64,000 bases of DNA from Rufibacter immobilis (GTDB lineage: Bacteria; Bacteroidota; Bacteroidia; Cytophagales; Hymenobacteraceae). The first letter of the stretch is position 1; each line of letters starts with the position of its first letter. The stretch spans positions 1 to 64,000 of the forward strand of contig NZ_RJJE01000001.1 of the NCBI RefSeq assembly GCF_003721565.1, read 5' to 3'. The notes under the pieces were generated by a model. It saw only the letters and a program-made list of their open reading frames with translations. It was not told the DNA's origin and did no database searches. The translations under genes were made by a program, and so were the position numbers. Shown here in pieces: positions 22-58,444 of this stretch.

Positions 22-82
22 GGAGGCGGGTGGCGTTTAGCGGCCGCTTTTCCGAAAACGGCCCCTAAACCCCACCCGCCTC
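22..82. repeat. Dispersed palindrome, copy 1 (extended arms)
   Basis: The core (34-70) begins CGTTTAGCGG and closes GCCCCTAAAC. Flanking arms GAGGCGGGTGG and CCACCCGCCTC also pair, so the inverted repeat spans about 60 bases. It lies just past the mlaD stop (minus strand), where a terminator is expected. Confidence 0.85.
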
Positions 83-102
83 TATGTGGTGCTCCAGCAA
101 TC

Positions 103-1215
103 TTAATTTGCTGGAGCTAATGAATCTGCTGGAGTTTGACGCTGGGTTGGCTGCATTGCTGGACCTACCGGAGACTGTTTGTTTATACCCTGCTTCTCCT
201 CTAGCTTCTGTAAGCGTTCTTGGCGCTGCAGTTCTCTTTCTTTTTGCTTGGCATCACGTTTGGCCTTTCGTCTAAAGAAGCCGTTCAGCAGAATACTGTG
301 TTGCAGGCTCTCCATATTAGCATCCAGTTTATCAGTCCCCGCCTCCAGATTTTGCATGGTAAGCTGCAAGTCGATCGCAAATTGCTCGTCGTTCAGCAGC
401 ACGCCCAAGGCATTGTTATTATTATTGAGTTTGTCTGTGGTGCTGTTGAGCTTGTTGGTCAAATTAGCGGTAGAAGCCATGACCTGCTCCAACTGCGCCA
501 TGGTTGCTCTCAGTTTATTGAACGTGACAGTGTCCGTAAGGAGATCATCGGCCAGGCCGCCTTGGGTATTGAGTTTAGTAGAGAACCTTGCGAGTTCCTG
601 GCTAACGCGGGTACTGGTGGCCGATGTCCTCTGCAGATTGGCTAAGATGGCCTGGAAGTTCTTTGCCAATTGATCATCTGTAAGCAGCGCCCCGGCCAAC
701 CCTTCGCCTTTGGCTAAACCAGAGCTGAGGTCTTTGAAGTTGTTGGTGATGGCCAGCAGGTTTTTATTGTTTTCCTGCAAGGTCTGCATCATGTCTTCTG
801 TGCTCAGCTGCGTCTCAGTGAACACTCGGTCTCCTTCCTGCACCACGGGCATCTGCGGGGTTCCGCCGTAAAGCACTATGGTTTTGTTCCCGATCAGGCT
901 TTCAGAACCTATCTTGGCCTTTACGTCTTTTCTAATGTATTTCTGAGACTCCTCCGTAATATCCATGAGAATGGCTACCTGGGAAGGTCCGTTGAAATTG
1001 ATCTGCTTCACTACGCCTACCCGTACGCCGGAGAACAGAACGTGGTTTCCCGTCTTCAGCCCGGTGACATCATCAAAAACGGCGGAGATCTGAATGGTTT
1101 TGGTGAACCGTTTCTGCTGGCCGCCCAGCACAAAGATGCCCACTACCAGAATCACCAGCGCCAGAAAGACAAAGATTCCGACAATAACAGTTCGCTTATT
1201 TTCTGCTGCACTCAT
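103..1215 (-). CDS. mlaD: MlaD/MCE-family lipid-transport protein
   Basis: This is the substrate-binding MCE component of an Mla-type ABC system, which moves phospholipids between outer and inner membranes. One membrane segment (about residues 10-30) anchors it to the inner membrane. An MCE domain (about 38-115, with VTGLKTGNHVLFSGVRVGVV) follows. Residues 145-310 are a long helical, coiled-coil-like stretch, and the tail is basic and Gln-rich (KRDAKQKERELQRQERLQK). At 370 residues it is much longer than the roughly 180-residue E. coli MlaD but normal for Bacteroidota MCE proteins. Its start directly abuts the mlaF stop, so it is the last gene of an mlaE-mlaF-mlaD operon. The family call is firm; the lipid substrate is inferred. 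Confidence 0.93.
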   Translation of the reverse strand: MSAAENKRTVIVGIFVFLALVILVVGIFVLGGQQKRFTKTIQISAVFDDVTGLKTGNHVLFSGVRVGVVKQINFNGPSQVAILMDITEESQKYIRKDVKAKIGSESLIGNKTIVLYGGTPQMPVVQEGDRVFTETQLSTEDMMQTLQENNKNLLAITNNFKDLSSGLAKGEGLAGALLTDDQLAKNFQAILANLQRTSATSTRVSQELARFSTKLNTQGGLADDLLTDTVTFNKLRATMAQLEQVMASTANLTNKLNSTTDKLNNNNNALGVLLNDEQFAIDLQLTMQNLEAGTDKLDANMESLQHSILLNGFFRRKAKRDAKQKERELQRQERLQKLEEKQGINKQSPVGPAMQPTQRQTPADSLAPAN

Positions 1216-1989
1216 TTAGTCTATGAAATTGTAATCATGAAATAGTTTCACCCGCTCGTCATCTGTGTTGAACACTTCCTCAAACGTACCCTGGCGTTGG
1301 AATTTCCCGTCCAGGAGCATTACCACGCGGTCTCCCACATCTTTAGCGCAGGTGAGGTCATGGGTGATGATGATAGAGGAGGTATGGAAGCGGCTCTGCA
1401 CTTCATTGATCAGGTTATTAATATCAATACAGGTAATAGGGTCTAGACCGGCGGTTGGCTCATCATACAGCATGATCTCGGGCTGCAGGATGAGCGTACG
1501 GGCAATCCCAATGCGTTTGCGCTGCCCACCGGACAGTTCAGAAGGCATTTGGTTAATGGTCTGTGAAAGCCCCACGGCATCCAGCACCACTGCCACCATA
1601 CGGTCTACCTCGCCGCGGGTCATGTCACGGCGGTTGCGCACCAGCGGGAACTCCAGGTTCTGCCGGATGGTCATGCTGTCATAAAGGGCGCTGTTCTGGA
1701 ACGAGAACCCAATCTTGAGGCGCAATTCATCTAAGGTACGGCCCTTCAATTTGTCTACTTCCTGCCCCAGCACATTCACCACCCCGGCATCTGGCTTGAG
1801 CAAACCGGAAATGATTTTGATCAAAACCGATTTCCCGGTTCCGGATTTCCCCAGCACCACCAGGTTCTCTCCTTTATATAGATCAAGGTCTACCCCGCGC
1901 AGCACATCCAGATCACCGAAGGATTTCTCAAGTCCTCTGATGTTGATGACGCTGTTGGAGGTATCTATGATTGGCTTGTTCTTCTTCAT
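1216..1989 (-). CDS. mlaF: Mla-type ABC transporter ATP-binding protein
   Basis: This is the cytoplasmic ATPase that powers the MCE lipid transporter together with the permease and MlaD neighbours. Walker A GKSGTGKS lies at residues 47-54, the signature LSGGQRKR near 152-159, and Walker B with the D-loop in MLYDEPTAGLD; the switch histidine is in IIITHDLTCA. The length of 257 residues is standard. It sits 15 bases after mlaE and abuts mlaD, so the three are translated from one transcript. The GKSGTGKS Walker A form is typical of the MlaF/Ttg2A group. Confidence 0.95.
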   Translation of the reverse strand: MKKNKPIIDTSNSVINIRGLEKSFGDLDVLRGVDLDLYKGENLVVLGKSGTGKSVLIKIISGLLKPDAGVVNVLGQEVDKLKGRTLDELRLKIGFSFQNSALYDSMTIRQNLEFPLVRNRRDMTRGEVDRMVAVVLDAVGLSQTINQMPSELSGGQRKRIGIARTLILQPEIMLYDEPTAGLDPITCIDINNLINEVQSRFHTSSIIITHDLTCAKDVGDRVVMLLDGKFQRQGTFEEVFNTDDERVKLFHDYNFID

Positions 1990-2004
1990 AAGGACACGAA
2001 AAGG

Positions 2005-2817
2005 TTAGCGGAGCGCGGTAATGACCTGCAAGGACAGCAGCTCCTCAATAAACACCAGAAACATAGCCGTTACTACGGAAGAGTTGGCCGCTTTGCCCAC
2101 GCCTTCGGTTCCTTTTGATGAATGATACCCTTTATAGCACCCCACCACTCCAATGGTGAACCCAAAAAGGCTGGACTTTAATACCGAGGAAAAAATATCA
2201 AGAAAGGTGATGGCGTCAAAGACCTGAGTAAAGTACGTGGTAAAGCTGGTGCCCTCATTAGCATTCACGTTGAGGTAGGCTCCTAAAAGCGCCACCAGCA
2301 TAGTATACATCATGAGCGCCGGAATCATGAACGTGGTGGCCAGCACCCGGCTTACCACCAGAAACTTGAAAGGGTTGGTGGCAGACACCTCCATGGCTTC
2401 AATCTGCTCGGTCACTTTCATGGAACCCAGCTCAGCGCCAATCATGGAACCAATACGGCCTGCCCCAATGAGCGCCGTTACCAAGGGGGCCAAGGCCCTT
2501 ACAATAGCCAAAGACACCAGCGAAGGCAACCAGGAAGTGGCACCAAACTCGGCCAGGGAGGGCCTTGACTGGTTCATGAACACAATCCCTATGATAAACC
2601 CTGTGAGCGAGATGAGCGGCAATGACTTGACACCAATCTCAAAGCACTGCCTTATGATCTCCTTGAACTCGTAAGGCGGCAAAAACACCTCCCGAAAGAA
2701 GCGCCCAATAAACGCCGCTATATTAGCCAGTTCCGTAAACACACGGTCCATGCGGCGGGAAATCACCTGCGCGCGGGGCCGTCTGGGCGGCTTTTCATCC
2801 TCATTATGAAATTTCAT
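2005..2817 (-). CDS. mlaE: MlaE-family ABC transporter permease
   Basis: This is the inner-membrane permease of the MCE lipid transporter. It has the MlaE/YrbE pattern: an N-terminal amphipathic region, then several membrane segments. The family-typical loop ALVTALIGAGRIGSMIGAELGSMKVTEQIEAM contacts the ATPase. Length is 270 residues. It is the first gene of the operon, with a TAnnTTTG -7 element 23 bases upstream of its start on the same strand. The charged N-terminus (about residues 1-30, DEKPPRRPRAQ) is an addition on the cytoplasmic side. Confidence 0.95.
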   Translation of the reverse strand: MKFHNEDEKPPRRPRAQVISRRMDRVFTELANIAAFIGRFFREVFLPPYEFKEIIRQCFEIGVKSLPLISLTGFIIGIVFMNQSRPSLAEFGATSWLPSLVSLAIVRALAPLVTALIGAGRIGSMIGAELGSMKVTEQIEAMEVSATNPFKFLVVSRVLATTFMIPALMMYTMLVALLGAYLNVNANEGTSFTTYFTQVFDAITFLDIFSSVLKSSLFGFTIGVVGCYKGYHSSKGTEGVGKAANSSVVTAMFLVFIEELLSLQVITALR

Positions 2818-2839
2818 CTACAGTCTTTGTTTTCGGCAA

Positions 2840-2847
2840 CAAACCTA
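2840..2847 (-). promoter_or_regulatory. Putative -7 element of the mla operon
   Basis: The minus strand reads TAGGTTTG, matching the Bacteroidota TAnnTTTG box, 23 bases before the mlaE start. No clear TTG -33 box is visible at the right spacing. Confidence 0.45.
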
Positions 2848-3013
2848 CTCTTATATATATAGGTTGGTCACTAACGTCTTTGGCACGTGCCCATTGGCAC
2901 CACCGGTTCTGCATAAACCTTCACTCTTGTACGGCTATTGGCCCCATAGCTGTTACTGAAACACCTGCCCCTTAGTTTCTCCAGCACCGGGACGAGGGGC
3001 GCAGACAGCATTG

Positions 3014-3050
3014 CCGTTTAGGGGCTCTTTTTCCCAAAATACGCCTAAAC
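3014..3050. repeat. Dispersed palindrome, copy 2 (degraded right arm)
   Basis: The left arm CGTTTAGGGGCTC is intact, but the right arm has decayed to TACGCCTAAAC. It lies between divergent genes, not at a gene end. Confidence 0.65.
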
Positions 3051-3327
3051 CAGAAAGCGAGGCCTCACCTGCCTCAGCGGTGGCAACCGTAACCCAAGGC
3101 CAAGGCAGGCAAAATTACATCAAAAAGCCTGATGACCTATCAAAAACATCCAGTACTTCCAAGGGCCCATATGTAAACTCTTCCGGTTTACCGGAGTACA
3201 ACCTATAGAACCGCTTTTGTGCAGGCTGCAAGAATGGCTTTAGAACGCATTTTAGCTGGGTACGCTATTTTGATCTGCCGCAGACGCATAGTATCATTGC
3301 CGCACCTTACTACCATACTATATAGCT

Positions 3328-3924
3328 ATGAAAATCTGTTTCGCGTCTAACAACGCCCATAAACTACAGGAAATTCAGCAGTTGCTGGGCCCTCCTTTTG
3401 AACTGATCAGCCTGGAGCAGCTTGGTTGCACCGAGGAATTGGCCGAAGACCAGGACACGCTGGAGGGAAACGCCTTGCAGAAAGCCACCTATGTCTGGGA
3501 GAAGTACGGAGTGCTTTGCTTCGCCGATGATACCGGACTAGAAGTGGAGGCCTTACACCATGAACCAGGCGTGTACTCTGCCCGTTACGCCGGGCCCGCC
3601 CGAGACAACCAGGCCAACATGCAGAAAGTACTGGAGAAACTACAAGGCCAGACCAACCGAAAAGCCCGTTTCAGAACCGCTATCGCGCTTATTCTGGAAG
3701 AGGGTGAGCAGCATTTATTTGATGGCATTGTGGAAGGACATATTACAGCGTCTGGGCGGGGTGAGAAAGGCTTTGGCTACGACCCAATTTTCGTTCCGGA
3801 AGGCCATGACCGCACCTTCGCTGAGATGGACAGCCAGGAGAAAAACCAGATCAGCCACCGCGGGCGGGCGGTACAGCAACTGGTTTCCTTTCTGCAACAC
3901 CGGTACATCCAGACCGGCACCTGA
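3328..3924 (+). CDS. rdgB: Non-canonical purine NTP pyrophosphatase (RdgB/HAM1)
   Basis: This cytosolic enzyme hydrolyses dITP, ITP and XTP to monophosphates, keeping deaminated purines out of DNA and RNA. The family nucleotide-binding start FASNNAHKLQEI is at residues 4-15. FADDTGLEVEAL (about 66-77), SARYAGP and the C-terminal FGYDPIFVPEG...TFAEM block follow. The 198-residue length is usual. It is monocistronic here: palindrome copy 3 lies after its stop, and a separate -7 box serves the next gene. Confidence 0.96.
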   Translation: MKICFASNNAHKLQEIQQLLGPPFELISLEQLGCTEELAEDQDTLEGNALQKATYVWEKYGVLCFADDTGLEVEALHHEPGVYSARYAGPARDNQANMQKVLEKLQGQTNRKARFRTAIALILEEGEQHLFDGIVEGHITASGRGEKGFGYDPIFVPEGHDRTFAEMDSQEKNQISHRGRAVQQLVSFLQHRYIQTGT

Positions 3925-3950
3925 GTCTTGCCTAAATCTCCAGGAGCCAT

Positions 3951-3996
3951 TATGCGTTTAGGGGCCGTTTTTGGGAAAAGAGCCCCTAAACGCATA
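3951..3996. repeat. Dispersed palindrome, copy 3
   Basis: The near-perfect core has outer arms TATGCG and CGCATA that also pair. It sits 26 bases after the rdgB stop and before the udk promoter, as a terminator would. Confidence 0.9.
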
Positions 3997-4079
3997 AACC
4001 GTTGGCGCAAAGTAAAATTAGATAAATGGTTGGGCTAAATTCTTTTGCCCGGGCGTTAGGCTGCATACCTACAAATAGC

Positions 4080-4087
4080 TAATTTTG
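4080..4087 (+). promoter_or_regulatory. Putative -7 element of udk
   Basis: TAATTTTG matches TAnnTTTG and lies 23 bases before the udk ATG. A -33 box is not obvious. Confidence 0.5.
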
Positions 4088-4110
4088 CACCCCGTAAACC
4101 ACACCTATTT

Positions 4111-4734
4111 ATGCATCAAAAGCCATTTATTGTAGGAATTACGGGAGGAAGCGCTTCGGGAAAAACCACGTTCCTGAGCAGACTACTGGCTTCGTATGCA
4201 CCGGAAGATATTTGTCTCATTTCACAGGACAACTATTACCATGACCGCGACAAACAAATCAGGGATGAGAACGGGATCCATAACTTTGACTTGCCCTCTT
4301 CCATTGACAGCGCGGCCTACGCCCATGACATCCTGCAATTAAGCAAAGGGGAAACCGTTTACCGCCAGGAGTACACCTTTAACAACCCTAACGTTGTTCC
4401 GCGCCAACTGGAGTTTAAACCGGCCCCTATTGTGGTGGTGGAAGGTATCTTTGTGTTTTACTTTGAGGAAGTAGCCAAACTGCTGGACATGAAGGTGTAC
4501 ATAGACGCCAAAGAATACATCAAGCTCCAGCGCCGCATCCTGCGTGACAAAGTGGAACGCGGCTATGACCTGGACGATGTGTTGTACCGCTACACCAACC
4601 ACGTGGCACCTACCTACGAGAAGTACATAAAGCCGTTCAAGAACGAGGCCGATGTGATCATCCCCAACAACCGCAACTTTGAAGTGGGGCTGGAGGTGCT
4701 GGTAACCTACCTGAACTCAAAGATCAAAAGATAA
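4111..4734 (+). CDS. udk: Uridine kinase
   Basis: This is a salvage kinase phosphorylating uridine (and probably cytidine) to the monophosphate in the cytosol. The P-loop GGSASGKTT is at residues 11-19. DNYYHDRDKQ follows, then NFDLPSSID, the substrate-binding block typical of the PRK/uridine kinase family. RRILRDKVERGYDLDDVLYRY is the lid region. The 207-residue length is normal. A strong hairpin terminator (4761-4800) begins 26 bases after its stop. A nucleoside importer (16.0 kb) is encoded elsewhere in the window. Confidence 0.94.
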   Translation: MHQKPFIVGITGGSASGKTTFLSRLLASYAPEDICLISQDNYYHDRDKQIRDENGIHNFDLPSSIDSAAYAHDILQLSKGETVYRQEYTFNNPNVVPRQLEFKPAPIVVVEGIFVFYFEEVAKLLDMKVYIDAKEYIKLQRRILRDKVERGYDLDDVLYRYTNHVAPTYEKYIKPFKNEADVIIPNNRNFEVGLEVLVTYLNSKIKR

Positions 4735-4760
4735 ACAATGCTGCTCCCAGGGCACTTTGT

Positions 4761-10675: not shown

Positions 10676-11041
10676 GTATGTATCTGTTGAGGTTCTTGAA
10701 AAACCTGAAATGATGAATGTGAGCCCGATGAACGGAAAAGGGTCCTGAACAAGGAGACAGACCTGGTCTGTTAAATGTCACTGGTGAAGCGCCACACGCA
10801 AATGAGTTCCGTTTAGGGGCTGTTTTTCAGAAAACAGCCCCTAAACGGAAAACAAACTAGTCTGATGGTGTCTTATCTCTGCTCAGGTACGCAAGAGGCG
10901 GCGGCGAGCGCGTGATCGCCCAACAGCCCATAAGCTGCATTACCTGTTCTAGAATACGCAAAAGGTTGGTGCGCCGGTTTACTTGTCTTCTTTGGGAGAA
11001 GCCTCTCTGAAGCCAGAGAAAATAAGCGCAAAAAGTAGCCT
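10676..11041. other. Intergenic region with palindrome copy 4
   Basis: This 366-base gap between two minus-strand genes holds palindrome copy 4. A minus-strand open frame (10873-11136) overlaps the following small gene, is Arg/Leu/Pro-rich and has no recognisable features. I see no other element. Confidence 0.65.
10807..10850. repeat. Dispersed palindrome, copy 4
   Basis: TTCCGTTTAGGGGCTGTTTT pairs perfectly with AAAACAGCCCCTAAACGGAA around a tiny loop. It lies 192 bases past the 3' end of the PNAP-ending gene B. Confidence 0.92.
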
Positions 11042-11580: not shown

Positions 11581-11620
11581 CCGTTTAGGCTTGTTTTCAG
11601 AAAAACGGGCGCTAAACGGC
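11581..11620. repeat. Dispersed palindrome, copy 5 (imperfect)
   Basis: CCGTTTAGGCTTGTTTTCAG faces AAAAACGGGCGCTAAACGGC. The ends pair but the inner stem has mismatches. It lies between divergent genes. Confidence 0.75.
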
Positions 11621-12640: not shown

Positions 12641-12698
12641 AAGGGCTTTGCGTTTAGGGGCCGTTTTTCCAAAAACAGCCCCTAAATGCAAAACCCTT
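12641..12698. repeat. Dispersed palindrome, copy 6, acting as terminator tip
   Basis: The core is flanked by outer arms AAGGGCTTTG and CAAAACCCTT that pair, and a T-rich run (CTTTTTTAT) follows on the plus strand. It lies 25 bases past the YitT-family stop and faces the 3' end of the convergent permease gene. Confidence 0.9.
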
Positions 12699-14724: not shown

Positions 14725-14765
14725 TGCGTTTTGGCTTAATTTTCAGAAAAACAGCCGCTAAACGC
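14725..14765. repeat. Dispersed palindrome, copy 7 (imperfect)
   Basis: TGCGTTTTGGCTTAATTTTC faces AAAAACAGCCGCTAAACGCCA. The left arm has diverged. It lies downstream of PNAP gene C. Confidence 0.65.
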
Positions 14766-17298: not shown

Positions 17299-17364
17299 AG
17301 AGTGCCCGTTTCCGTTTAGGGGCTGCTTTTTCAAAAACAGCCCCTAAACGGAAACGGGCACTCT
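17299..17364. repeat. Dispersed palindrome, copy 8 (longest perfect arms)
   Basis: The core CGTTTAGGGGCTG...CAGCCCCTAAACG is extended by outer arms AGAGTGCCCGTTTC and GAAACGGGCACTCT, giving almost 30 paired bases per side. It is located 19 bases past the nupC stop, between convergent genes. Confidence 0.95.
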
Positions 17365-17415: not shown

Positions 17416-17461
17416 AGTGCGTTTAGCGGCTCTTTTTCCAGAAACAGGCGCTAAACGCACT
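17416..17461. repeat. Dispersed palindrome, copy 9
   Basis: AGTGCGTTTAGCGGC faces CAGGCGCTAAACGCACT. It is the second copy between convergent nupC and the peptide transporter gene. Confidence 0.88.
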
Positions 17462-20037: not shown

Positions 20038-20079
20038 TGCGTTTAGCGGCCGTTTTTCTGAAACCGGGGCCAAAACGCC
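20038..20079. repeat. Dispersed palindrome, copy 10 (imperfect)
   Basis: TGCGTTTAGCGGCCGTTTTT faces AAACCGGGGCCAAAACGCC, with mismatched stem. It lies between divergent genes. Confidence 0.75.
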
Positions 20080-21537: not shown

Positions 21538-21589
21538 GAAAAGCCGTTTAGGGGCTCTTTTTTCAAAAAGAGCCCCTAAACGGCTTTTC
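21538..21589. repeat. Dispersed palindrome, copy 11 (perfect, extended)
   Basis: Arms of about 25 bases are perfectly paired, including outer arms GAAAAGC and GCTTTTC. It sits 20 bases after the antiporter stop, between convergent genes. Confidence 0.95.
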
Positions 21590-21949
21590 TATTTCTGATA
21601 GTAACGCATTGCTCCTAGATTCTCCACAGGTGCTCATCCCCCTACCCCCTTCAAAGGGGGACGAAATGCGTGCTAGATACCGTTGATTCTCATCGGCCTT
21701 GATTTACTAAGTTCACTGAGACACGACAACGGCCTTACTACCCGCACCTATTCCAGTCTTTCGTTCGAGCGCCTCGCTTGTGGCCAAGCAAGCAAGAAAC
21801 TAAGAGAGAATTACACTGGCTTGGCCGCAAGGGCAGTGCGAGAGGGGAAGACGGGGCCTCGCGGCCGTGAGCGCTTACCGGATAAGATGGAACAAAGAGG
21901 CTCATGAAGTCATAGACAACCGCAAAGCCCAGGCAACAGCCAATTAAAA

Positions 21950-21990
21950 AACGTTTAGGGCCTGTTTTTGGAAAAACAGGCCCTAAACGC
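21950..21990. repeat. Dispersed palindrome, copy 12
   Basis: ACGTTTAGGGCCTGTTTTT faces AAAAACAGGCCCTAAACGC with perfect core pairing, including a compensated GCC/GGC variant. It ends 7 bases from the aroC stop. Confidence 0.92.
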
Positions 21991-23080: not shown

Positions 23081-24507
23081 TTCCTGTTTACTATGAAAAT
23101 AACTAAAGCAACCCCCAGCATCACGGCCAGAACCACATTTATGTAGAGGCGCACCTCCTTGAATTGGTCCAAGCCCACTAGCTGGTTGCTTTCTGTGTCG
23201 GCAATATTGTAAAATTCGCCCACATCTTGGGCCCTTATGAAGGTATTTTGATCTTCCTGCCCCCGCACCCGCACCGTAAAGGCAGGCCGAAGGGTGTCAT
23301 AGCGGGCGGTAACGGTATTGAAATATACCCATTGAAACAGCTCGCGCAGCGGATATCCCCCGGCCTGGTGCCCCACCATAAAGTACCGGAAGGTTTTCTG
23401 CCCGGTCATTCTTCCCTGCTGCACCTGCACGTTCTGCCGTATCTCTGGGGTATAGATTTCCAGCTCACTGGAAACCGCAATGTGCTGCGGGGTGGGCAGC
23501 GTCCTGATGTTTCCTTCGCCCACAATCTTGAGCAGATAGACCAGGTTCTGGTTCAGGGAAATGGTGTTGCGTGACACCTGCTCCTCCAGCCGGAATGCGC
23601 CTACCGCCACCTGATCGCGGAGCGGATGCGGGGGCAGCGGCCTCACGGTTACCTCGCTGCCTTTGGCAGTATAAGTTTTGTACTCCGGCAAACGGTTCTG
23701 GGTGAGCAAAGAAGGATTTTTGGCGATCTTGTATTTGATCATCCGGAGGCCAACGGTAGGGAAACGGAGCGGCTGCGGCGTAATTGGGAAAAGAACCGCC
23801 TCGTGTAACTTGTACCGGGTAAAATCTTTGCCGCCAATTTTCAGCTTCTCAGGGGTAATCTCGTCCTGCTGCACCACCTCCTCCAAGGTACTCCGCTGTT
23901 TCAGCTGCCCAATAATGCCGCTGATCTGGGTATTGAACTCATAGAAATCCAGCAAGCCCAAATCAGAGTCTGCCACATAGAACCACAGTGAAACCGGTAC
24001 TGCCTCCCCCACATACACGCGTTGTTTGGGTACGTGCAGCGTTAAGAAGGCATTTTCCTTCACCTCCACAAATTCTGGGGCGCCCGCTCCTCCGGGGACC
24101 ACTGGTAAACTGTCTCCGGGGGTTGCGCCGGCTGGCGGTGTAGCCCCCACGCGTCCTTTTATGCCCGGCGACAGGATGCTTTTCCCGTCAACGGTCAAGG
24201 TGAAGGGCTTCACCGTGAACTCGCCTTCGCGCAGGGGCGCATACTGTTGGGTGAGCGTGTACACCACAGACTTCTTCGTTCCCCGGGTGTAGGTGGTGGT
24301 GAATGATTTCTGGGTGCTTTTCTGCATTCCCTCAATCTCTGGGAAACCTTCCACCTTAGTAGGTTTAGTCCCCCCTGATTTCAGGGAGATGGTGAAGTAT
24401 TGTTCTATGGGAATAGTGGTGGGGCCGTATTCTATGGTGTGCTCCTGCGCGCGTGCACCTACCGCCCAGCACAGAAAGCACAAAAAGAGAACCACCGTGT
24501 TTTTCAT
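23077..24507 (-). CDS. BatD-family envelope protein
   Basis: A BatD-like protein named for the Bacteroides aerotolerance operon. It has an N-terminal signal peptide (residues 1-20, ending ARAQ), then beta-rich Ig-like repeats (about 20-430, for example [15 protein letters not shown]). One C-terminal membrane segment (about 452-473, [17 protein letters not shown]) holds the mostly periplasmic body to the inner membrane. At 476 residues it is shorter than the usual roughly 600-residue BatD proteins. No batA, batB, batC or MoxR-like gene lies beside it, so it is an orphan member. It forms a two-gene transcript with aroC. Confidence 0.85.
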
Positions 24508-24510
24508 CTG

Positions 24511-24540
24511 ATTTCAGAAAAACGGGCGCTAAACGGCCCG
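24511..24540. repeat. Dispersed palindrome, half copy 13
   Basis: Only the centre and right arm (TTTCAGAAAAACGGGCGCTA and following AACGG) remain, immediately upstream of the batD start in a divergent gap. Confidence 0.6.
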
Positions 24541-26736: not shown

Positions 26737-27672
26737 GGCCGCTGGTTCCTCTGCCACAAACTGCAGGTTGCGGGTTAAGCCCGCGAAGCCTGTCCGTTTC
26801 ACGGCCGACTTTTTGAAAATATGCCCAAAAACTTCCTGAGTTAGCTCCAGCCAATCTGAAGAGGAAAGGTGGAGCAACTCCGGATGGGGCGCGAACGCCG
26901 GCTCCCGGTGCGGTTTGCTGAACCGGTTCCAGGGGCACACATCCTGGCAGATATCGCAGCCAAACACCCAGTTCCCAAACTTCCCCTCTACCTCCTGCGG
27001 AATCTGGTCTTTCAACTCAATGGTGAAGTAAGAAATACATTTACTGCCGTCTACCACGTAGGGCTCTGAAATAGCGTCTGTGGGACAGGCATCCATGCAT
27101 TTGGTGCAGGTGCCGCAGTAGTCTTTGATAGGTCCGTCCGGCTCCAGTTCCAGGTCCAGAATAAGCTCCGCGATGAAAAAGAAACTGCCCACCCCCGGCC
27201 TGATGAGGTTGCTGTTCTTGCCTACCCAGCCCAAGCCGCTTTTCTTGGCCCACACCTTGTCCATGACCGGCGCCGAGTCCACGAACACACGTCCACCCAC
27301 TTCGCCAATCTCCTCCTGAATGTACTGGAACAGCGTCTTGAGCTTGTCTTTGATCACGAAGTGGTAGTCCTGCCCATAAGCGTACTTAGAGATTTTGAAG
27401 GTATCCTCAGGCTGGGTTTCCTCCGGATAATAATTCAGCAGTAAACTCACCACTGACTTTGCCCCGTCTACCAGCAGCCGCGGGTCCAGGCGTTTGTCAA
27501 AGTGATTGGCCATGTAGTGCATCTGGCCGTGCATGTTCTGATTGAGCCAGTTCTCCAGCCGCGGGGCCTCCTCCTCCAGAAAATCGGCCTTGGATACCCC
27601 GCAGTACATAAACCCCAGCTCCTGGGCTTTCTGCTTGATGAGTTGTGTATGCTTTGGGGCGAGGTTGAACAT
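26701..27672 (-). CDS. queG: Epoxyqueuosine reductase
   Basis: Final step of queuosine tRNA modification, reducing epoxyqueuosine to queuosine with a cobalamin and two [4Fe-4S] clusters. The DUF1730 cobalamin region occupies about residues 1-170 ([39 protein letters not shown]). The first cluster motif is [16 protein letters not shown] and the second is [11 protein letters not shown]. The length of 323 residues is normal. The C-terminus ([16 protein letters not shown]) is divergent and overlaps the convergent small gene by 36 bases. Confidence 0.96.
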
Positions 27673-27734: not shown

Positions 27735-27784
27735 TTTTTCCGTTTAGGGGCTGTTTTTCCCAAAAGAGCCCCTAAACGGAAAAA
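27735..27784. repeat. Dispersed palindrome, copy 14
   Basis: TTTTTCCGTTTAGGGGCT pairs with AGCCCCTAAACGGAAAAA. It lies upstream of queG and downstream of the ruvB repeat cluster. Confidence 0.92.
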
Positions 27785-28027: not shown

Positions 28028-28081
28028 ACTTCTATGACCTCGCAGTGTGCGCAGCTTCTGCAAATGCCTACCGCTTTTTAC

Positions 28082-28110
28082 CTGTTTTCAGAAAAACGGC
28101 TCCTAAACGC
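28082..28110. repeat. Dispersed palindrome, half copy 15
   Basis: Centre and right arm only (TGTTTTCAGAAAAACGGCTC, then CTAAACG), directly after the ruvB stop. Confidence 0.6.
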
Positions 28111-31192: not shown

Positions 31193-31236
31193 TTTCTATT
31201 TTGGCGTCGTTTTAGGAAAAAGAGCCCCTAAACGGC
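31193..31236. repeat. Dispersed palindrome, copy 16 (left arm degraded)
   Basis: The right arm GAAAAAGAGCCCCTAAACGG is intact; the left arm has decayed to GCGGCCATTTTTC with extra bases. Confidence 0.6.
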
Positions 31237-31424: not shown

Positions 31425-31466
31425 GAAAAAACAGAAGCCAACAGCGTACAACTGTTGGCTTCTGTT
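31425..31466 (-). terminator. Terminator of the TonB-dependent receptor gene
   Basis: AACAGAAGCCAACAG and its perfect complement form a 15-base stem with a 7-base loop. On the minus strand a T-run follows. It begins 26 bases past the receptor stop. Confidence 0.85.
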
Positions 31467-31501
31467 TAGCGGCCGTTTTTCTCAAAAAAGCTTAAAAACG
31501 C
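31464..31501. repeat. Dispersed palindrome, copy 17 (imperfect, overlaps a stop codon)
   Basis: TGTTTAGCGGCCGTTTTTCTC faces CAAAAAAGCTTAAAAACGCA. The right arm includes the stop codon and last codons of the TonB receptor. Confidence 0.6.
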
Positions 31502-33933: not shown

Positions 33934-34012
33934 GTGAAAAAAAGACGAAAATGGTAAAACATACAGAAGCCACCCGGGGCCGGTGCTCCCACTCTGTTTT
34001 GTTTCCCTTGTT

Positions 34013-34087
34013 TTTCCCTTCGCCGGCATTACCCGGATCAGGTTCAATGGGTATGATCTCAGCCCGTTATCTTAAGGCACCCCTAAA
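34013..34087 (-). ncRNA. TPP (thi-box) riboswitch
   Basis: The minus strand contains the conserved TPP aptamer parts in order: AGGGGTGCC, GGGCTGAGA, ATACCCATTGAACCTGATC and GGGTAATGCCGGCGAAGGGA. The aptamer starts where transcription from the promoter at 34094-34124 should begin. About 80 bases separate it from the receptor start. A GC-rich hairpin within that spacer (near 33,965-33,990) could be part of the expression platform. Ligand-bound RNA is expected to lower receptor expression. Confidence 0.96.
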
Positions 34088-34093
34088 CTGAGG

Positions 34094-34124
34094 CAAAGCT
34101 ACACCCCCCAATGTTCTTAACCAA
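34094..34124 (-). promoter_or_regulatory. Promoter of the TPP riboswitch/TonB receptor unit
   Basis: The minus strand shows TTG (34122-34124), a 20-base spacer and TAGCTTTG (34094-34101), about 7 bases ahead of the riboswitch. Confidence 0.7.
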
Positions 34125-36597: not shown

Positions 36598-36637
36598 TTT
36601 CCCTTTAGGGGCTCTTTTTCTGAAAATAACGTAAAAC
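36598..36637. repeat. Dispersed palindrome, copy 18 (right arm degraded)
   Basis: The left arm CTTTAGGGGCTCTTTTTC is intact; the right arm has decayed to GAAAATAACGTAAAAC. It lies just after the dedA-family stop. Confidence 0.65.
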
Positions 36638-36663
36638 CAGCAATTACCTTAACCCTATAAAAG

Positions 36664-37350: not shown

Positions 37351-37400
37351 AAAAAGCGTTTAGGGGCTCTTTTTCCAAAAAGAGCCCCTAAACGCTTTTT
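37351..37400. repeat. Dispersed palindrome, copy 19 (perfect, extended)
   Basis: AAAAAGCGTTTAGGGGCTC and its perfect complement, closing in CTTTTT. It lies 5 bases from the stop of the epimerase gene, between convergent genes. Confidence 0.95.
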
Positions 37401-40690: not shown

Positions 40691-40737
40691 CTTTCTGTTT
40701 AGGGGCCGTTTTTAGAAAAAGAGCCCCTAAACGGAAA
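40691..40737. repeat. Dispersed palindrome, copy 20
   Basis: CTGTTTAGGGGCCGTTTTT faces AAAAAGAGCCCCTAAACGG, starting 6 bases after a stop codon, between convergent genes. Confidence 0.9.
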
Positions 40738-44687: not shown

Positions 44688-44730
44688 TTCCGTTTAGCGG
44701 CTCTTTTTCTGAAAACAGGCCCAAAACAGC
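44688..44730. repeat. Dispersed palindrome, copy 21 (imperfect)
   Basis: TTCCGTTTAGCGGCTCTTTTT faces AAAACAGGCCCAAAACAG. It lies 21 bases after the pulA stop. Confidence 0.75.
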
Positions 44731-47196: not shown

Positions 47197-47236
47197 CTGT
47201 TTAGGGGCTCTTTTTCCAGAAACAGTCCCTAAACAG
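47197..47236. repeat. Dispersed palindrome, copy 22
   Basis: CTGTTTAGGGGCTCTTTTTC faces AGAAACAGTCCCTAAACAG, beginning at the base after the GAF gene stop, between convergent genes. Confidence 0.85.
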
Positions 47237-47272: not shown

Positions 47273-47313
47273 TCCGTTTAGCGCCTGTTTTGGGAAAAAG
47301 AGGCGCTAAACGC
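47273..47313. repeat. Dispersed palindrome, copy 23
   Basis: TCCGTTTAGCGCCTGTTTT faces AAAAAGAGGCGCTAAACGC. It is the second copy in the same convergent gap. Confidence 0.85.
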
Positions 47314-49906: not shown

Positions 49907-49912
49907 AACAAG

Positions 49913-49940: not shown

Positions 49941-49943
49941 TTG

Positions 49944-50025
49944 TGCGCAGGGGGAGATTCGAACTCCCACACCCGAAGGCGCTGCCGCCTGAAGACAGTG
50001 CGTCTACCAATTTCGCCACCTGCGC
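49944..50025 (-). tRNA. tRNA-Leu (CAG)
   Basis: The minus strand folds as a class II tRNA: acceptor GCGCAGG/CCTGCGC, discriminator A, D-loop with GAAATTGGTAGACGC, and anticodon loop TTCAGGC giving CAG. A variable arm GCGCCTTCGGGTGT and T-arm GTTCGAATC complete it. CCA is not encoded. Confidence 0.97.
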
Positions 50026-50852: not shown

Positions 50853-50894
50853 TTCCGTTTAGCGGCCCTTTTTCAGGAATCAGGCCCAAAACGG
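50853..50894. repeat. Dispersed palindrome, copy 25 (imperfect)
   Basis: TTCCGTTTAGCGGCCCTTTTT faces AGGAATCAGGCCCAAAACGGC with several mismatches. It lies between divergent genes. Confidence 0.75.
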
Positions 50895-51516: not shown

Positions 51517-51555
51517 CCCGTTTAGCGGCCGTTTTTCCTAAAACGGGCTTAAACC
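51517..51555. repeat. Dispersed palindrome, copy 26 (imperfect)
   Basis: CCGTTTAGCGGCCGTTTTTC faces AAAACGGGCTTAAAC, 20 bases past the pncC stop. Confidence 0.75.
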
Positions 51556-51601
51556 AGCCATTTGTCATCATTTACCGGTAGCGAGTTGGCGTGTACAGGC
51601 C

Positions 51602-51644
51602 TAGCGTTTTTTGCCTTAATTTGGAAAAACAGCCGCTAAACGCT
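51602..51644. repeat. Dispersed palindrome, copy 27 (imperfect)
   Basis: TAGCGTTTTTTGCCTTAATTT faces AAAAACAGCCGCTAAACGCT. The left arm has diverged; it lies 18 bases before the methyltransferase start. Confidence 0.65.
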
Positions 51645-54220: not shown

Positions 54221-54281
54221 ATTTTCAGGTTCCTATTCTGCCGGACGCTCTAAAAGCAATGGACTTTATACAAGGCAGGAT

Positions 54282-54324
54282 TTCCGTTTAGGGGCTGTTT
54301 TGGAAAAACAGCCCCTAAACGGAA
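54282..54324. repeat. Dispersed palindrome, copy 28 (perfect)
   Basis: TTCCGTTTAGGGGCTGTTTT pairs with AAAACAGCCCCTAAACGGAA. It lies 61 bases past the M61 peptidase stop. Confidence 0.95.
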
Positions 54325-54432
54325 TGGAACCAAGAGACTAAGCGGCCGGTTGTTTCGTTAGAGGTAGAAATACACTATCTTAGTAGTGCCGCCACCTGTG
54401 TTTCTCAGGCACGGCATTTCAAAGTAAGACAA

Positions 54433-55050
54433 ATGGCAAAACGATTTTATAGATATACGTTTCTTTTTCTCCTGATCTGGGCAACTACTCTGCTAACGAG
54501 TCAGGCGCAGGAACTGGAAACTGGTTTACCATCCGGGGCTGATTCTCTGCACCACACCGCACCCTTTGTTCCACGTGTGAGCTACGGCCTTAACGCGGGC
54601 GCGGCATTCAGCAACTTGGGCTCGTTTTCCTATCTGGAACCACGGGTACAGTACCGGGTAAGCCCTCGGTTTCAGGTGTTCAGCAGTTTAACGGTGCTCC
54701 AGACCTGGGGCGGTCCTACGTTCAGAACCACTACTCCAGAGGGAACGGCCACTACCTTATCGGGGGCACCAGACCGGCAGTACCTGTTGCACGTGGGCGG
54801 CACTTACGCCATGAGCGAACGGCTGCAGTTGAGCGGCAGTGTCTGGAAAGACTTAACCCCTTCCGCCACCAACAGATGGAATGCCAACCCGTTTCTGTAC
54901 GGTAGGTTTCCTAACCAAGGGTTCCAGTTCCAGGCGCAGTACCAGGTGGCTCCCAACGTGACCATCTCCGGTGGGGTGCGGTACGGCAACGGCGGCCACT
55001 ACGGGTACGGGTACCCGGGCAGCGGCTTTAACTCTATGTGGGGCTATTAA
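54433..55050 (+). CDS. Exported beta-rich envelope protein
   Basis: No named family. The 205 residues start with a signal peptide (1-29, FLFLLIWATTLLTSQAQ). Alternating hydrophobic strands follow (VSYGLNAGAAFSNLGSFSYL, RFQVFSSLTVLQTWGGP, RLQLSGSVWKDLTPS, NVTISGGVRYGNGGHYGYGY), suggesting an 8- to 10-strand outer-membrane barrel. The C-terminus is Gly/Tyr-rich (GYPGSGFNSMWGY). A terminator follows after about 30 bases. Confidence 0.8.
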   Translation: MAKRFYRYTFLFLLIWATTLLTSQAQELETGLPSGADSLHHTAPFVPRVSYGLNAGAAFSNLGSFSYLEPRVQYRVSPRFQVFSSLTVLQTWGGPTFRTTTPEGTATTLSGAPDRQYLLHVGGTYAMSERLQLSGSVWKDLTPSATNRWNANPFLYGRFPNQGFQFQAQYQVAPNVTISGGVRYGNGGHYGYGYPGSGFNSMWGY

Positions 55051-55080
55051 TAAAAAGAGACTTTCTTTATCTGTTTCATA

Positions 55081-55118
55081 AAAAAGCCTTTCCGCTTGTG
55101 GGCGGAAAGGCTTTTTTA
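55081..55118 (+). terminator. Terminator after the exported beta-rich protein gene
   Basis: AAAAAAGCCTTTCCGC pairs with GCGGAAAGGCTTTTTT around a short loop. Confidence 0.9.
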
Positions 55119-55155
55119 CGCCCATTGCCGCCGCTCATGCTGCTAATTTTATAAA

Positions 55156-55184
55156 TTGGGCATATCGTTTTTTGGTTATATTTG
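55156..55184 (+). promoter_or_regulatory. Promoter of the first sodium:solute symporter gene
   Basis: TTG (55156-55158), 18 bases, then TATATTTG (55177-55184) matches the Bacteroidota -33/-7 pair and lies 45 bases before the ATG at 55229. Confidence 0.65.
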
Positions 55185-55228
55185 CCCCATCACCTAACCA
55201 AGACAAAACTTATCTTCCCAGCTCACCC

Positions 55229-56701
55229 ATGTCTTCAACCCTAATTCTGGGCATCATTGCCGCTTATTTCTGCATTCTCATCCTGATTTCTTTTATAACG
55301 AGTAAAAAAGGCGAATCTACGGACAGTTTCTTTTTGGCAAACCGGTCTTCGCCGTGGTATGTGGTGGCCTTCGGGATGATTGGGACTTCCCTGTCTGGGG
55401 TAACCTTTATCTCTATTCCGGGCATGGTGGAAAAAGCGCAGTTTTCTTACCTGCAGCTCATCTTGGGGAACATGCTGGGGTATTTTGTGGTGGCCATGGT
55501 ACTCATGCCGCTTTATTACCGCCTGAACCTGGTTTCCATCTACACCTATCTGGAGCAGCGGTACGGTTTCTGGTCCTACAAAACTGGGGCGGCATTCTTC
55601 CTGCTATCGCGCACGCTGGGAGCTTCCCTGCGTATGTTCCTGGTGGCAGGCGTACTGCAGCTGGCCGTGTTTGACGAACTGGGCGTGCCGTTTGAGGTTT
55701 CTGTGGCCATTACCATCGCGCTTATCTGGGTGTATACGTTTAGAGGCGGTATGAAAACCATCATCTGGACCGATACCTTCCAAACCTTGGCCATGCTCAT
55801 CTGCGTGGGCATCAGTATCTCTATGATCTCCAGCGAGCTGAACCTTTCCTTCCAAGGCATGGTAGACACCATCAGCGAAAGTAAATATTCACAGGTATTC
55901 TTCTGGGATGTAAAGGACCCGCGTTACTTCTTCAAGCAGTTTCTTTCCGGTGCTTTCATCTCCATTGTGATGGTGGGTCTTGACCAGGACATGATGCAGA
56001 AAAACCTGAGCTGCAAAAACCTGAAGGAGGCCCAGAAAAACATGTTCTCGTTCACCGTAATTGTGATGATTGTGAACATCCTGTTCCTGAGCCTGGGCGC
56101 TTTGCTGTACCTCTTCGCTGAAGCCAAGGGCATTGGCCTGCCGGAGAAAGGCGATAACGTGTTCCCGTTCCTGGCCCTGAACCACTTCTCCTCGTTTGCG
56201 GCCATCGCCTTTATTCTGGGCATTACCGCTATCACCTATGCCTCGGCAGACTCCGCTTTGACGGCGCTTACCACTTCTTTCTGCGTAGACTTCCTGGATT
56301 TCAAGAACCGGCCCGAGACGCAGCGCATCCGATACAAAAACTGGGTGCACCTGGGCTTCTCTCTTTTGATGGGGATTGTGATCATCATCTTCCGGATTGT
56401 GAACGACGAAAGCGTGGTGCAGGCAGTGTTCAAAGTGGCCGGTTACACGTACGGCCCGCTGCTGGGGCTTTACTCCTTCGGGGTATTCTCTAACCGTCCG
56501 GTGCGCGACAACCTCGTGCCGTTCATCTGTGTGCTGGCCCCGGTGCTCACCTACATCATCAGCCTTAATTCCGTAGACTGGTTCTGGGGGTATGAGTTCG
56601 GGTTTGAGGTCCTGATCCTGAACGGATTCCTGACCTTTATGGGCTTATACTCCATCTCCCGCAAGAAAACCGATCTGCTTGACGCCACCACGCCTGTTTA
56701 A
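55229..56701 (+). CDS. Sodium:solute symporter (SSS family), copy 1
   Basis: Inner-membrane Na+-coupled solute importer. I start at 55229 (MSSTLILGIIAAYFCIL, 490 residues), downstream of the promoter; the frame opens at 55172. The LeuT-fold family landmarks are FGMIGTSLSGVTFISIPGMV (about residues 48-67), SIYTYLEQRYGFWSYKTGAAF (about 95-117), and ITAITYASADSALTALTTSFCVDF (about 333-356). The last of these carries the Na+-site Ser/Thr pair. Thirteen helices expected. The substrate is not evident. The following gene is a close paralogue. Confidence 0.94.
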   Translation: MSSTLILGIIAAYFCILILISFITSKKGESTDSFFLANRSSPWYVVAFGMIGTSLSGVTFISIPGMVEKAQFSYLQLILGNMLGYFVVAMVLMPLYYRLNLVSIYTYLEQRYGFWSYKTGAAFFLLSRTLGASLRMFLVAGVLQLAVFDELGVPFEVSVAITIALIWVYTFRGGMKTIIWTDTFQTLAMLICVGISISMISSELNLSFQGMVDTISESKYSQVFFWDVKDPRYFFKQFLSGAFISIVMVGLDQDMMQKNLSCKNLKEAQKNMFSFTVIVMIVNILFLSLGALLYLFAEAKGIGLPEKGDNVFPFLALNHFSSFAAIAFILGITAITYASADSALTALTTSFCVDFLDFKNRPETQRIRYKNWVHLGFSLLMGIVIIIFRIVNDESVVQAVFKVAGYTYGPLLGLYSFGVFSNRPVRDNLVPFICVLAPVLTYIISLNSVDWFWGYEFGFEVLILNGFLTFMGLYSISRKKTDLLDATTPV

Positions 56702-56720
56702 TCAGGTATAAAGAACATGT

Positions 56721-56776
56721 AAAGGCTTGCGTTTAGGGGCTCTTTTTCCAAAAAGAGCCCCTAAACGCAAGCCTTT
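56721..56776. repeat. Dispersed palindrome, copy 29 (perfect, extended)
   Basis: The core is extended by outer arms AAAGGCTTG and CAAGCCTTT, then a short T-run. It lies 20 bases after the first symporter stop and before the second symporter's promoter. Confidence 0.95.
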
Positions 56777-56805
56777 TTAAATAAGCCAAATTCGGTTTTG
56801 GGCCG

Positions 56806-56813
56806 TACCTTTG
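56806..56813 (+). promoter_or_regulatory. Putative -7 element of the second symporter gene
   Basis: TACCTTTG matches TAnnTTTG and lies 52 bases before the ATG at 56865, so the paralogue has its own promoter. Confidence 0.5.
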
Positions 56814-56864
56814 CAGCGCGTTGGTCACACTTTTCCAGACCAGCTTTGTTTGAGGTTATTACGC

Positions 56865-58313
56865 ATGTCTCCACTTCTCACGCTGGGCATCATCATCGCC
56901 TATTTCTGCCTGCTGCTGCTGGTTTCTTTTCTCACGAGCAAGAAAGGCGAATCTACTTCGGGTTTCTTCTTGGCTAACCGCAACTCTCCCTGGTACGTGG
57001 TGGCCTTTGGCATGATTGGGACCACGCTCTCGGGCATCACCTTTGTGTCTATTCCGGGCATGGTGGAGAAAACCGGCTTCACGTACCTACAAATTGTGTT
57101 GGGCTACGTGCTGGGCTACGTAGTGATTGCGCTGGTGCTCTTGCCGCTATACTACCGTCTGAGGCTGGTTTCCATCTACACCTATCTGGAGCAGCGGCTG
57201 GGTTTCTGGTCCTACAAAACCGGCAGTGCGTTTTTCCTGCTTTCCCGCACGCTCAGCGCCGCCCTCAGGCTGTATCTGGTGGCGGGGGTACTGCAACTGG
57301 CGGTATTCGGGCCGCTGGGCATTCCGTTTGCGGGTACCGTGGCACTCACCATCGCTTTCATCTGGTTTTACACGTTCAGGGGCGGCATGAAAACCATTGT
57401 CTGGACCGATACCCTCCAGACGCTGGCCATGCTTCTCTGTCTGGGCACCAGCATCTGGCTCATCTCTGAGGAACTGCACCTTTCGTTCAGCACACTGGTA
57501 AGCACCATCACGGACAGCTCCCATGCCACCCTTTTCGTTTGGGATGCCAAAGCGCCTAATTTCTTCGTGAAACAGATTCTGGCCGGCGCGTTCATCACCA
57601 TTGCCATGACGGGCCTTGACCAAGACATGATGCAGAAAAACCTGAGTTGCCGTAACCTGCCCGAGGCCCAGAAGAACATGTTCTGGTTCACCGTCATTCT
57701 GGTGGTGGTGAACGTGCTCTTTCTCTGCCTGGGCGTGCTTTTGTACACCTTTGCGGCGGCCAAAGGAATAGGAGTACCCGCCAAAGGCGATGACGTATTC
57801 CCGTTCCTGGCCCTGAACCATCTTTCCTCGGTGGTAGGCTTGGCCTTTATCCTGGGAATCACGGCCATCACCTACGCTTCGGCAGACTCTGCCCTCACCT
57901 CTCTGACCACCGCCTTCTGCGTCGATTTCCTGGATTTCCAGCATCGGCCGGAGGCCCAGCGGGTACGTTACAAAAATTGGGTCCACCTGGCGTTCTCCCT
58001 GCTGCTGGCACTGGTCATTCTCCTGTTCAAACTCTACAATGACGAGAGCATCATTGCCACGCTCTTCACGCTGGTGGGCTATACCTATGGTCCGTTGCTG
58101 GGCATGTACACCTTTGGTCTGCTCACCACAAGAACCGTTCGGGACGGTGCCGTTCCGGTACTGGGCGTTCTATCTCCGGTGTTCACGTACGTCATCAGTT
58201 CCCATTCCGCCCAGTGGTTCTGGGGCTATCAGTTTGGGTTTGAGGTGCTGCTGCTGAACGGATTTCTCATGTTTTTAGGGCTCTGGTTCGTTTCAGCCCG
58301 TAAAAGTCTGTAG
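56865..58313 (+). CDS. Sodium:solute symporter (SSS family), copy 2
   Basis: A tandem paralogue of the preceding symporter, 482 residues from the ATG at 56865 (MSPLLTLGIIIAYFCLL). The same landmarks occur: FGMIGTTLSGITFVSIPGMV, SIYTYLEQRLGFWSYKTGSA, GLDQDMMQKNLSCRNLPEAQ and ITAITYASADSALTSLTTAF. The two proteins align end to end without large gaps and most positions agree by eye. Divergence is concentrated in the loop after LICVGISISMIS/LLCLGTSIWLIS and at the C-terminus, where substrate or regulation may differ. Confidence 0.94.
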   Translation: MSPLLTLGIIIAYFCLLLLVSFLTSKKGESTSGFFLANRNSPWYVVAFGMIGTTLSGITFVSIPGMVEKTGFTYLQIVLGYVLGYVVIALVLLPLYYRLRLVSIYTYLEQRLGFWSYKTGSAFFLLSRTLSAALRLYLVAGVLQLAVFGPLGIPFAGTVALTIAFIWFYTFRGGMKTIVWTDTLQTLAMLLCLGTSIWLISEELHLSFSTLVSTITDSSHATLFVWDAKAPNFFVKQILAGAFITIAMTGLDQDMMQKNLSCRNLPEAQKNMFWFTVILVVVNVLFLCLGVLLYTFAAAKGIGVPAKGDDVFPFLALNHLSSVVGLAFILGITAITYASADSALTSLTTAFCVDFLDFQHRPEAQRVRYKNWVHLAFSLLLALVILLFKLYNDESIIATLFTLVGYTYGPLLGMYTFGLLTTRTVRDGAVPVLGVLSPVFTYVISSHSAQWFWGYQFGFEVLLLNGFLMFLGLWFVSARKSL

Positions 58314-58363
58314 CATTCTGGTTTTACGACCTTCTATGGGCTGCGGAAATCAATGGATATGCC

Positions 58364-58371
58364 TACCTTTG
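58364..58371 (+). promoter_or_regulatory. Putative -7 element of the ABC exporter gene
   Basis: TACCTTTG matches TAnnTTTG, 134 bases before the exporter ATG. Palindrome copy 30 would then lie in the leader. Confidence 0.4.
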
Positions 58372-58401
58372 CGGGTTGCGTTCGCTGTTCAGGCAGAGGA
58401 A

Positions 58402-58444
58402 TGCGTTTAGAGCCTCTTTTCTGAAAAACAGCCCCTAAACGTAA
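58402..58444. repeat. Dispersed palindrome, copy 30 (imperfect)
   Basis: ATGCGTTTAGAGCCTCTTTT faces AAAAACAGCCCCTAAACGTAA with stem mismatches. It is the last copy in the window. Confidence 0.8.

Follow-up and report, generated by a model that had tools for sequence, protein, structure and literature searches.

The window analysed here comprises the first 64,000 nucleotides of contig NZ_RJJE01000001.1 of Rufibacter immobilis (G000 in our own genome labels), and scattered through it is a short symmetric DNA element of 38 bp, in which a loop of 4 bases separates two 17-bp arms, the second running in reverse, with the arm spelled CGTTTAGSGGCYNTTTT in this genome. A genus-level weight matrix, trained on stretches from relatives and made symmetric, finds 30 matches in the window, 29 of them strong (scores 28.7-45.1) and one weak (score 18.9), and none in trinucleotide-shuffled sequence at the same threshold. 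With a simpler consensus scan there were 32 matches, two of them evidently there by chance (two shuffles gave 1 and 0), and the motif CGTTTAG, for which 6.5 ± 2.3 occurrences would be expected in the window, is there 42 times. The first-pass annotation, which had listed about 30 copies of a core of about 38 bases at roughly one per 2 kb, is therefore upheld as to number and spacing.

If an arm is counted as being in dialect form when it shows at most 3 differences, 17 of the 30 matches have both arms in this form, 12 have one and 1 has none. A perfect 17-bp palindrome lies at 10810..10847, and further perfect palindromes at 21545..21582, 21952..21989, 37357..37394, 54285..54321 (37 bp long, in a region occupied in 11/11 relatives) and 56730..56767, the last of which caps a terminator-like stem with a T-run (longer hairpin 56721-56776). 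The copy at 17313..17350, with both arms and 14 extra complementary bases in its flanks, is likewise the tip of a longer hairpin (17299-17364), and that at 34..71 pairs at 14 of 17 positions while its flanks contribute 11 more complementary bases. Both arms are also in dialect form at 3955..3992, 12651..12688 (between convergent genes, the region being occupied in 10/10 scored relatives), 17420..17457, 27741..27778, 40696..40733, 44691..44728, 47198..47235 (in these last two the right arm is at distance 3), 47275..47312 and 58404..58441; as read from the sequence, the intergenic region around 40696 holds a separate long inverted repeat with a T-run as well. Copies with one dialect arm on the + strand stand at 3015..3052 (left arm; divergent intergenic region), 20040..20077 (divergent genes), 31463..31500, 36602..36639 (the lowest-scoring of the 29), 50856..50893 (divergent genes) and 51519..51556, and those with one on the - strand at 11581..11618, 14727..14764, 24498..24535, 28072..28109, 31197..31234 and 51605..51642; the regions of the copies at 3015, 20040, 50856 and 51605 are each occupied in 11/11 relatives. 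The weak match at 26795..26833 falls within a called gene and is probably no member.

Larger counts were taken from an 864-kb sample of the same genome, made up of the window, 400 kb of contig C10 and 400 kb of contig C1, in which the matrix finds 366 copies, or about 2,000 per genome by extrapolation. The length is 38 bp in 357 of these, 37 bp in 8 and 39 bp in 1; since the scan admits only these three lengths, independent support for a fixed length comes from the low gap rate between species given below. Genes were called by our own codon-usage script, which leaves 22.7% of bases intergenic, and 353/366 copies are intergenic and 13/366 lie inside called genes. The intergenic location described by the first-pass annotation holds for the family, while its description of the core as palindromic stands for part of the family only. 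Both dialect arms are present in 217/366 copies, one arm in 136 and none in 13, so that the word palindrome is apt for about 60% of copies. One-arm copies between tandem genes are close to strand-symmetric (40 oriented with the genes, 32 against). As a separate observation, the dialect arm of one-arm intergenic copies is on the lower-coordinate side in 78/126 (p 0.0095), whichever the GC skew. The window copy at 21952 stands just past a different dispersed repeat of about 215 bp (window ~21727-21945), copies of which are ~80-87% identical; 12 copies of at least 120 bp, the window one included, occur in the sample and more in relatives.

The element is genus-wide in Rufibacter. In the 4.77-Mb genome the arm plus the next two bases, with at most one mismatch, gave 1,018 forward and 1,007 reverse matches (2,025 together) against 0 for a reversed-arm control, which settles in favour of the repeat a check on genome-wide abundance that had been proposed earlier. 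In a range survey of 60 genomes drawn evenly from a larger group, the full-palindrome pattern (at most 3 mismatches) is present at 15-963 copies per genome in 14/14 Rufibacter genomes and has 1 match altogether in the 46 other genomes of the family; the reversed control has 0 throughout. The Rufibacter genomes G001 and G010, from outside that draw, carry 68 and 99 arm-pattern matches, and a covariance model (R1) without base pairs, in which at most 150 candidates per genome were scored and which therefore speaks to presence and not to counts, matched in all 16 Rufibacter genomes. Scanned with the weight matrix, stretches from 14 relatives hold 4.4-7.9 copies per 10 kb, and shuffled sequence holds 0; the matrix also has 0 matches in 1.19 Mb around 77 genes for REP-associated tyrosine transposases (RAYTs) outside Rufibacter. 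An Rfam scan of the window gave no match for the element, the gathering score being reached by nothing but a TPP riboswitch (aptamer at 33997-34094) and a tRNA (tRNA-Leu at 49943-50025), and searches of an open-access literature library yielded no description of it, in agreement with the first-pass statement that no named repeat family was known. A plasmid search with one copy as query returned no match. Four stretches in viral contigs match one arm pattern exactly, none of which scores as a palindrome with the 38-bp symmetric matrix on one strand.

For the most part the element is inherited in place. Occupancy was compared in two 20-kb stretches of G000, each against 11 relatives, and was counted per region, which means that a separate gain within that region also scores as occupied. 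Where G000 has a copy the region is occupied in relatives in 61/61 and 43/56 cases (104/117 in total), and where G000 has none it is occupied in 14/70 and 14/29 (28/99). The cells that could be scored, region by genome, were 61/88 and 70/88 in the first stretch and 56/77 and 29/44 in the second; unscored cells had no flanking gene match, were rearranged, or were too long or too short. As to distance from the next gene, the site at 50856 shows 98-115 bp in 12/12 genomes; of two other sites, one shows 6-27 bp apart from a single value of 103, and the other 69-146 bp. The closest pair of relatives, G014 and G004, is 90% identical in seven genes, and among 114 copies in a 228-kb sample of G014, 83 are in aligned blocks and 25 have a G004 copy in the same unaligned gap; the remainder consists of 5 without a counterpart, which fall in gaps at least 437 bases long, and 1 at an edge. 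Counted in both directions, an aligned block or the same gap holds a counterpart for 108/114 and 109/117 copies; those without one lie at an edge or where at least 265 bases are unaligned.

The copy at 3955..3992 appears to have a different history. In 9/11 relatives the site is empty and consists of the stop codon, 1-2 bases, a conserved AAATTC-like stretch and the next gene, while palindromes that differ in spelling and in surrounding DNA occupy it in G000, G010 and G012. Because the nine others share the junction, three independent gains are likelier than repeated identical losses. The occupied genomes also carry unrelated flanking DNA, and no target-site duplication is evident by eye. We considered spread as part of a longer unit and rejected it, since the DNA gained at this site in G000 has no second copy extending more than about 20 bases past the core. 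New elements do arise, therefore, and a slow mobile component is possible.

Comparison of closely related genomes indicates which bases matter. In the G014 sample, 96 of the 114 copies have both flanks anchored in G004, 86 are 38 bp long and unique in the alignment, and 80 are gapless. Over these 80 pairs, eight positions (T4, T5, T15, T16, A23, A24, A34 and A35) differ in 30/640 cells (4.7%), compared with 509/2,080 (24.5%) for the other arm positions and 25.4% of flank columns. The eight were picked on this alignment and then applied unchanged to three other pairs (G009/G010, G006/G013 and G002/G011; five stretches, in which 43/67 copies were anchored and 36 gapless), where the key positions differ in 29/288 cells (10.1%), the other arm positions in 342/936 (36.5%) and flank columns in 35.4%. 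Arm positions outside the eight thus change at the rate of the flanks. When only the middle base of TTT/AAA triplets is considered, 13/439 key cells differ between G014 and G004 against 20.9% of 1,304 flank cells (p 3e-23), and in the three other pairs 20/236 against 159/619 (p 6e-9). Gaps are rarer in the core (0.1-1.0%) than in flanks within 100 bases (3-7%) for G014/G004, and in the other pairs the figures are 4.9% and 16.5%. One site had hinted that the core evolves faster than its flanks, a notion that was overturned on 96 sites. The conserved bases form TT/AA steps at positions 4-5, 15-16, 23-24 and 34-35, with centres 11, 8 and 11 bp apart. Stem positions pair in only 58-60% of cases in G014 and G004, and the proposal that the arms co-vary strongly as an RNA stem found little backing, with pairing within a genome near that of shuffled arms and an excess at some positions. 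In these alignments, the strongest constraint lies on the symmetric AT steps and not on pairing as such.

The remaining arm bases differ between species as dialects, CGTTTAGGGGCTGTTTT in G000, CGTTTTCGGGCTCATTT in G012 and CGTTTTTGGCCTGTTTT in both G006 and G013, while most other relatives have spellings close to C/TGTTTTAGGCCTGTTTT; the dialects of relatives rest on 9-21 copies per genome. In the second 20-kb stretch only 1/96 arms of relatives' copies is within one base of the G000 dialect, and it is consequently spelling, not place, that differs at shared sites. G000 is not uniquely homogenised, as had been entertained, for its within-genome arm identity of ~0.755 is surpassed in G005, G012, G006 and G013. 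Linkage between variable arm positions in G000 is weak (8/28 position pairs above 200 shuffles, maximum 0.155 bits), a pattern more in keeping with a recognition motif than with recent copying.

The density of copies peaks at gene 3' ends, where they are also more palindromic. Among intergenic regions of at least 60 bp in G000, those occupied number 68/78 between convergent genes, 170/299 between tandem genes and 41/87 between divergent genes, the corresponding values being 19/25, 51/83 and 15/27 in G014 and 22/26, 49/82 and 16/28 in G004. Copies typically lie closer to a 3' end of a gene (median 53 nt to the nearest one) than to a 5' end (median 154 nt). Both dialect arms are found in 199/302 non-divergent versus 13/47 divergent copies (p 1.4e-6), and flanks extend the hairpin by an outer stem of at least 4 bp in 58/212 tandem, 33/90 convergent and 3/47 divergent copies (shuffles 2.8-4.0%). 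This extension is rarer in G014 and G004, at 0-15% by context. Where the outer stem of a tandem copy reaches 6 bp or more, TTTT stands at its foot in 11/32 cases; in control windows the figure is 11.6%. Judging by these arm and outer-stem counts, gene-end copies in G000 are often longer hairpins, some with a T-run, and copies between divergent genes are lopsided. The lopsided copies at 50856 and 20040 fold as RNA little better than shuffles (z -0.3 at the latter), yet each of their regions is occupied in 11/11 relatives. At 51605-51642 and its orthologous sites, one arm has the form TACTTTTG in several relatives, and the non-dialect arm of the window copy is similar to several relatives; TACTTTTG resembles the Bacteroidetes promoter box TAnnTTTG, so some lopsided copies may overlap promoters.

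High copy number and intergenic placement call to mind REPs, for which a RAYT is the candidate mobiliser, as the first-pass annotation had suggested. G000 encodes one full-length RAYT of 181 aa (G000:C1:452655-453197; L031:1432-1977), which scores 98.7 bits against a cut-off of 80 with the NCBIfam REP-associated tyrosine transposase model and is 87% identical to its closest relatives in Rufibacter sediminis and R. roseus and 86% to that of R. glacialis. It is not the only one, as had been assumed, since a protein search adds a distant RAYT (33%) and pieces of a broken one. Read from the sequence, its motifs are NHLH, WQ and YIHQNP, given as the signature of RAYT subclass 2.6 (Bertels group 5), whose genes are reported to be flanked by atypical structures (PMC6006769). 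Mini-hairpins of the CGGATTTGCAATCCG type number 156 in the 149 kb that lie no more than 1 kb from related RAYT genes, 12 in 1,056 kb farther off and 0 in 800 kb of G000 away from its RAYT, and are present near 53/80 subclass-2.6-like RAYT loci (L061-L140); they are probably the atypical structures of this subclass and the cognates of the G000 RAYT. Eight more distant RAYT loci in the genus (L228-L235) have no CGGATTTGCAATCCG-type mini-hairpins, and the distant RAYT at G000:C1:1097575 was left out of this neighbour-hairpin comparison. Beside 15 Rufibacter RAYT genes (loci of ~3.5 kb) there are 28 of the 38-bp palindromes in ~53 kb, which is background density. RAYTs are present in 15/16 Rufibacter genomes; in G006 neither a family nor a protein search finds one, yet the genome keeps 671 full palindromes, although its lack of a RAYT may leave room for past mobilisation. 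Because its gene family adjoins other hairpins, the full-length G000 RAYT is not the partner of the 38-bp palindrome, and the suggestion that such an enzyme mobilises the element fails for it, with the RAYT-free G006 pointing the same way. Pontibacter seems to have a palindrome family of its own with the core AAAGTATA, which occurs 150 times in 180 kb at loci L064, L066, L069, L072, L073, L079, L080, L089 and L097 versus 8 times in one shuffle.

Among known systems, REPs and BIMEs share with the element their short palindromic build, hundreds to thousands of copies, intergenic location, species-specific spelling and a density that is greatest next to gene 3' ends and where genes converge. With its copy number and intergenic fraction the element fits the general description of the GTAG superfamily of REPs (palindromic, ~20-60 bp, high copy, mostly intergenic). 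It differs in its 17-4-17 build, in being largely kept in place across a genus and in having TT/AA positions under selection. No GT[AG]G foot precedes it in the aligned window copies and flanks inspected by eye, where it begins YGTTT; the hairpins beside RAYT genes close to that of G000 are the mini-hairpins and not the same element, and no RAYT is found in one repeat-keeping genome, G006. The likely cognates of the local full-length RAYT, which has the subclass 2.6 signature (PMC6006769), are unlike the 38-bp element. CGTC-tagged REPs are also extragenic palindromes without an associated transposase and are reported from Bacteroidetes too, but their stems measure 8-9 bp, their loops 4-5 bp, and one end carries a CGTC tag (PMC3733652), whereas in Rufibacter each arm is 17 bp long and starts with YGTTT. 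The two inverted arms of ~17-19 bases could count as a spacerless doublet in the sense of REPINs (PMC3116915), but the element has conserved positions and no RAYT link was found. By raw count, neighbouring copies are less than 150 bp apart in 41/363 gaps of the 864-kb sample. Intrinsic terminators resemble those copies in which the element caps a stem and a T-run comes after it. However, a GC-rich stem leading directly into a T-run describes a minority (the 11/32 tandem copies above), the T-run of the element itself is inside the stem, and almost half of divergent regions are occupied; the first-pass view that the shape is not that of a standard terminator is supported here, as 21/32 tandem copies with such an outer stem have no T-run after it.

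We favour, with a probability of roughly 40%, the reading of the element as a two-fold symmetric intergenic DNA element of fixed length that marks mainly gene 3' ends and has REP-like placement, a putative protein-binding or bending site. The double-stranded element would be read by a putative two-fold symmetric protein touching the AT steps, perhaps acting like an architectural or topology-related factor that bends the DNA, and the dialects would follow changes in this protein. A further role, at the level of RNA, may have been added for copies at gene 3' ends, which are more palindromic and in G000 often extended into longer hairpins. In favour of this reading are the constrained TT/AA positions, the near-constant length, inheritance in place, the motif-like variation of the arms, the strand symmetry of one-arm copies, the occupied regions of the poorly folding copies at 50856 and 20040, and an order of occupancy by gene context that is similar in G000, G014 and G004. 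A bolder version strikes us as doubtful, namely that at least 2,000 putative protein-bound, DNA-bending boundary elements lie genome-wide between transcription units, sharing a 38-bp symmetric AT-step code in two forms, symmetric at gene ends and lopsided between divergent genes, with a spelling that would shift throughout the genome with the reader. Several points weigh against the favoured reading. No binding protein has been identified, none having been searched for, and a concerted respelling at ~2,000 sites is hard to achieve by selection alone. The occupancy contrast is weaker in the second stretch (43/56 vs 14/29), and the 3955 site looks like three independent gains. The first region of G009/G010 lacks the TT/AA effect in the triplet test (12/46 vs 40/150), and 2/11 of its aligned cores are mostly gapped. 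There are also signs of an RNA hairpin role: compensatory changes between G014 and G004 number 22 against 12.0 ± 3.3 in shuffles (shuffle maximum 27), mismatches are modestly skewed to G-U over A-C (179 vs 136), and outer stems extend copies at gene ends.

In a somewhat unlikely alternative, the element is a transcribed stem-loop at gene 3' ends that ends, protects or processes transcripts and whose sequence is kept through an RNA-reading protein or enzyme. The proximity to 3' ends, the outer stems and TTTT feet, the concentration of two-armed copies away from divergent regions, the compensatory changes and the fold of the perfect copy at 37357..37394 (-27 kcal/mol, z -8.8) all speak for it, but it has to contend with the 41/87 occupied divergent regions, with ~40% of copies having a poorly matching arm, with the low stem pairing and rarer outer stems of G014 and G004, with a small G-U excess and with conserved positions that are A-T and not strong G-C pairs. 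We judge it unlikely that the element is instead non-autonomous and mobile in the manner of REPs, a family of long standing that some enzyme dispersed and that is largely fixed today, though new copies in the current dialect would still insert now and then. Very high copy number, REP-like distribution, the gains at 3955, RAYTs in nearly all genomes of the genus (eight distant loci among them without mini-hairpins) and some weak linkage between arm positions would suit this history; selection on fixed positions, the counterparts found for nearly all G014 and G004 copies, the other hairpins beside the RAYT family closest to that of G000, the background density of palindromes near RAYT genes, the RAYT-free G006 and the absence of a longer duplicated unit at 3955 do not. 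Whole-genome dialects would also be accounted for by a sequence favoured in DNA uptake and spread by transformation and recombination, and the ~2,000 arm copies and spelling differences at shared sites agree with this, uptake sequences reportedly having dialects of their own (PMC3630211). Yet DNA uptake sequences occur widely inside genes, where only 13/366 of these copies are found, and a two-arm 38-bp build is unlike them, and we regard this explanation as highly improbable.

REP-like repeats are usually attributed to a transposase, and the Rufibacter family is REP-like by eye, yet its places and a few of its bases are kept across the genus. A survey of the hairpins beside RAYT genes across many genomes is a simple guard against assigning a repeat to the wrong transposase. 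The family offers a tractable case for examining the host role of extragenic palindromes and how thousands of sites change together.

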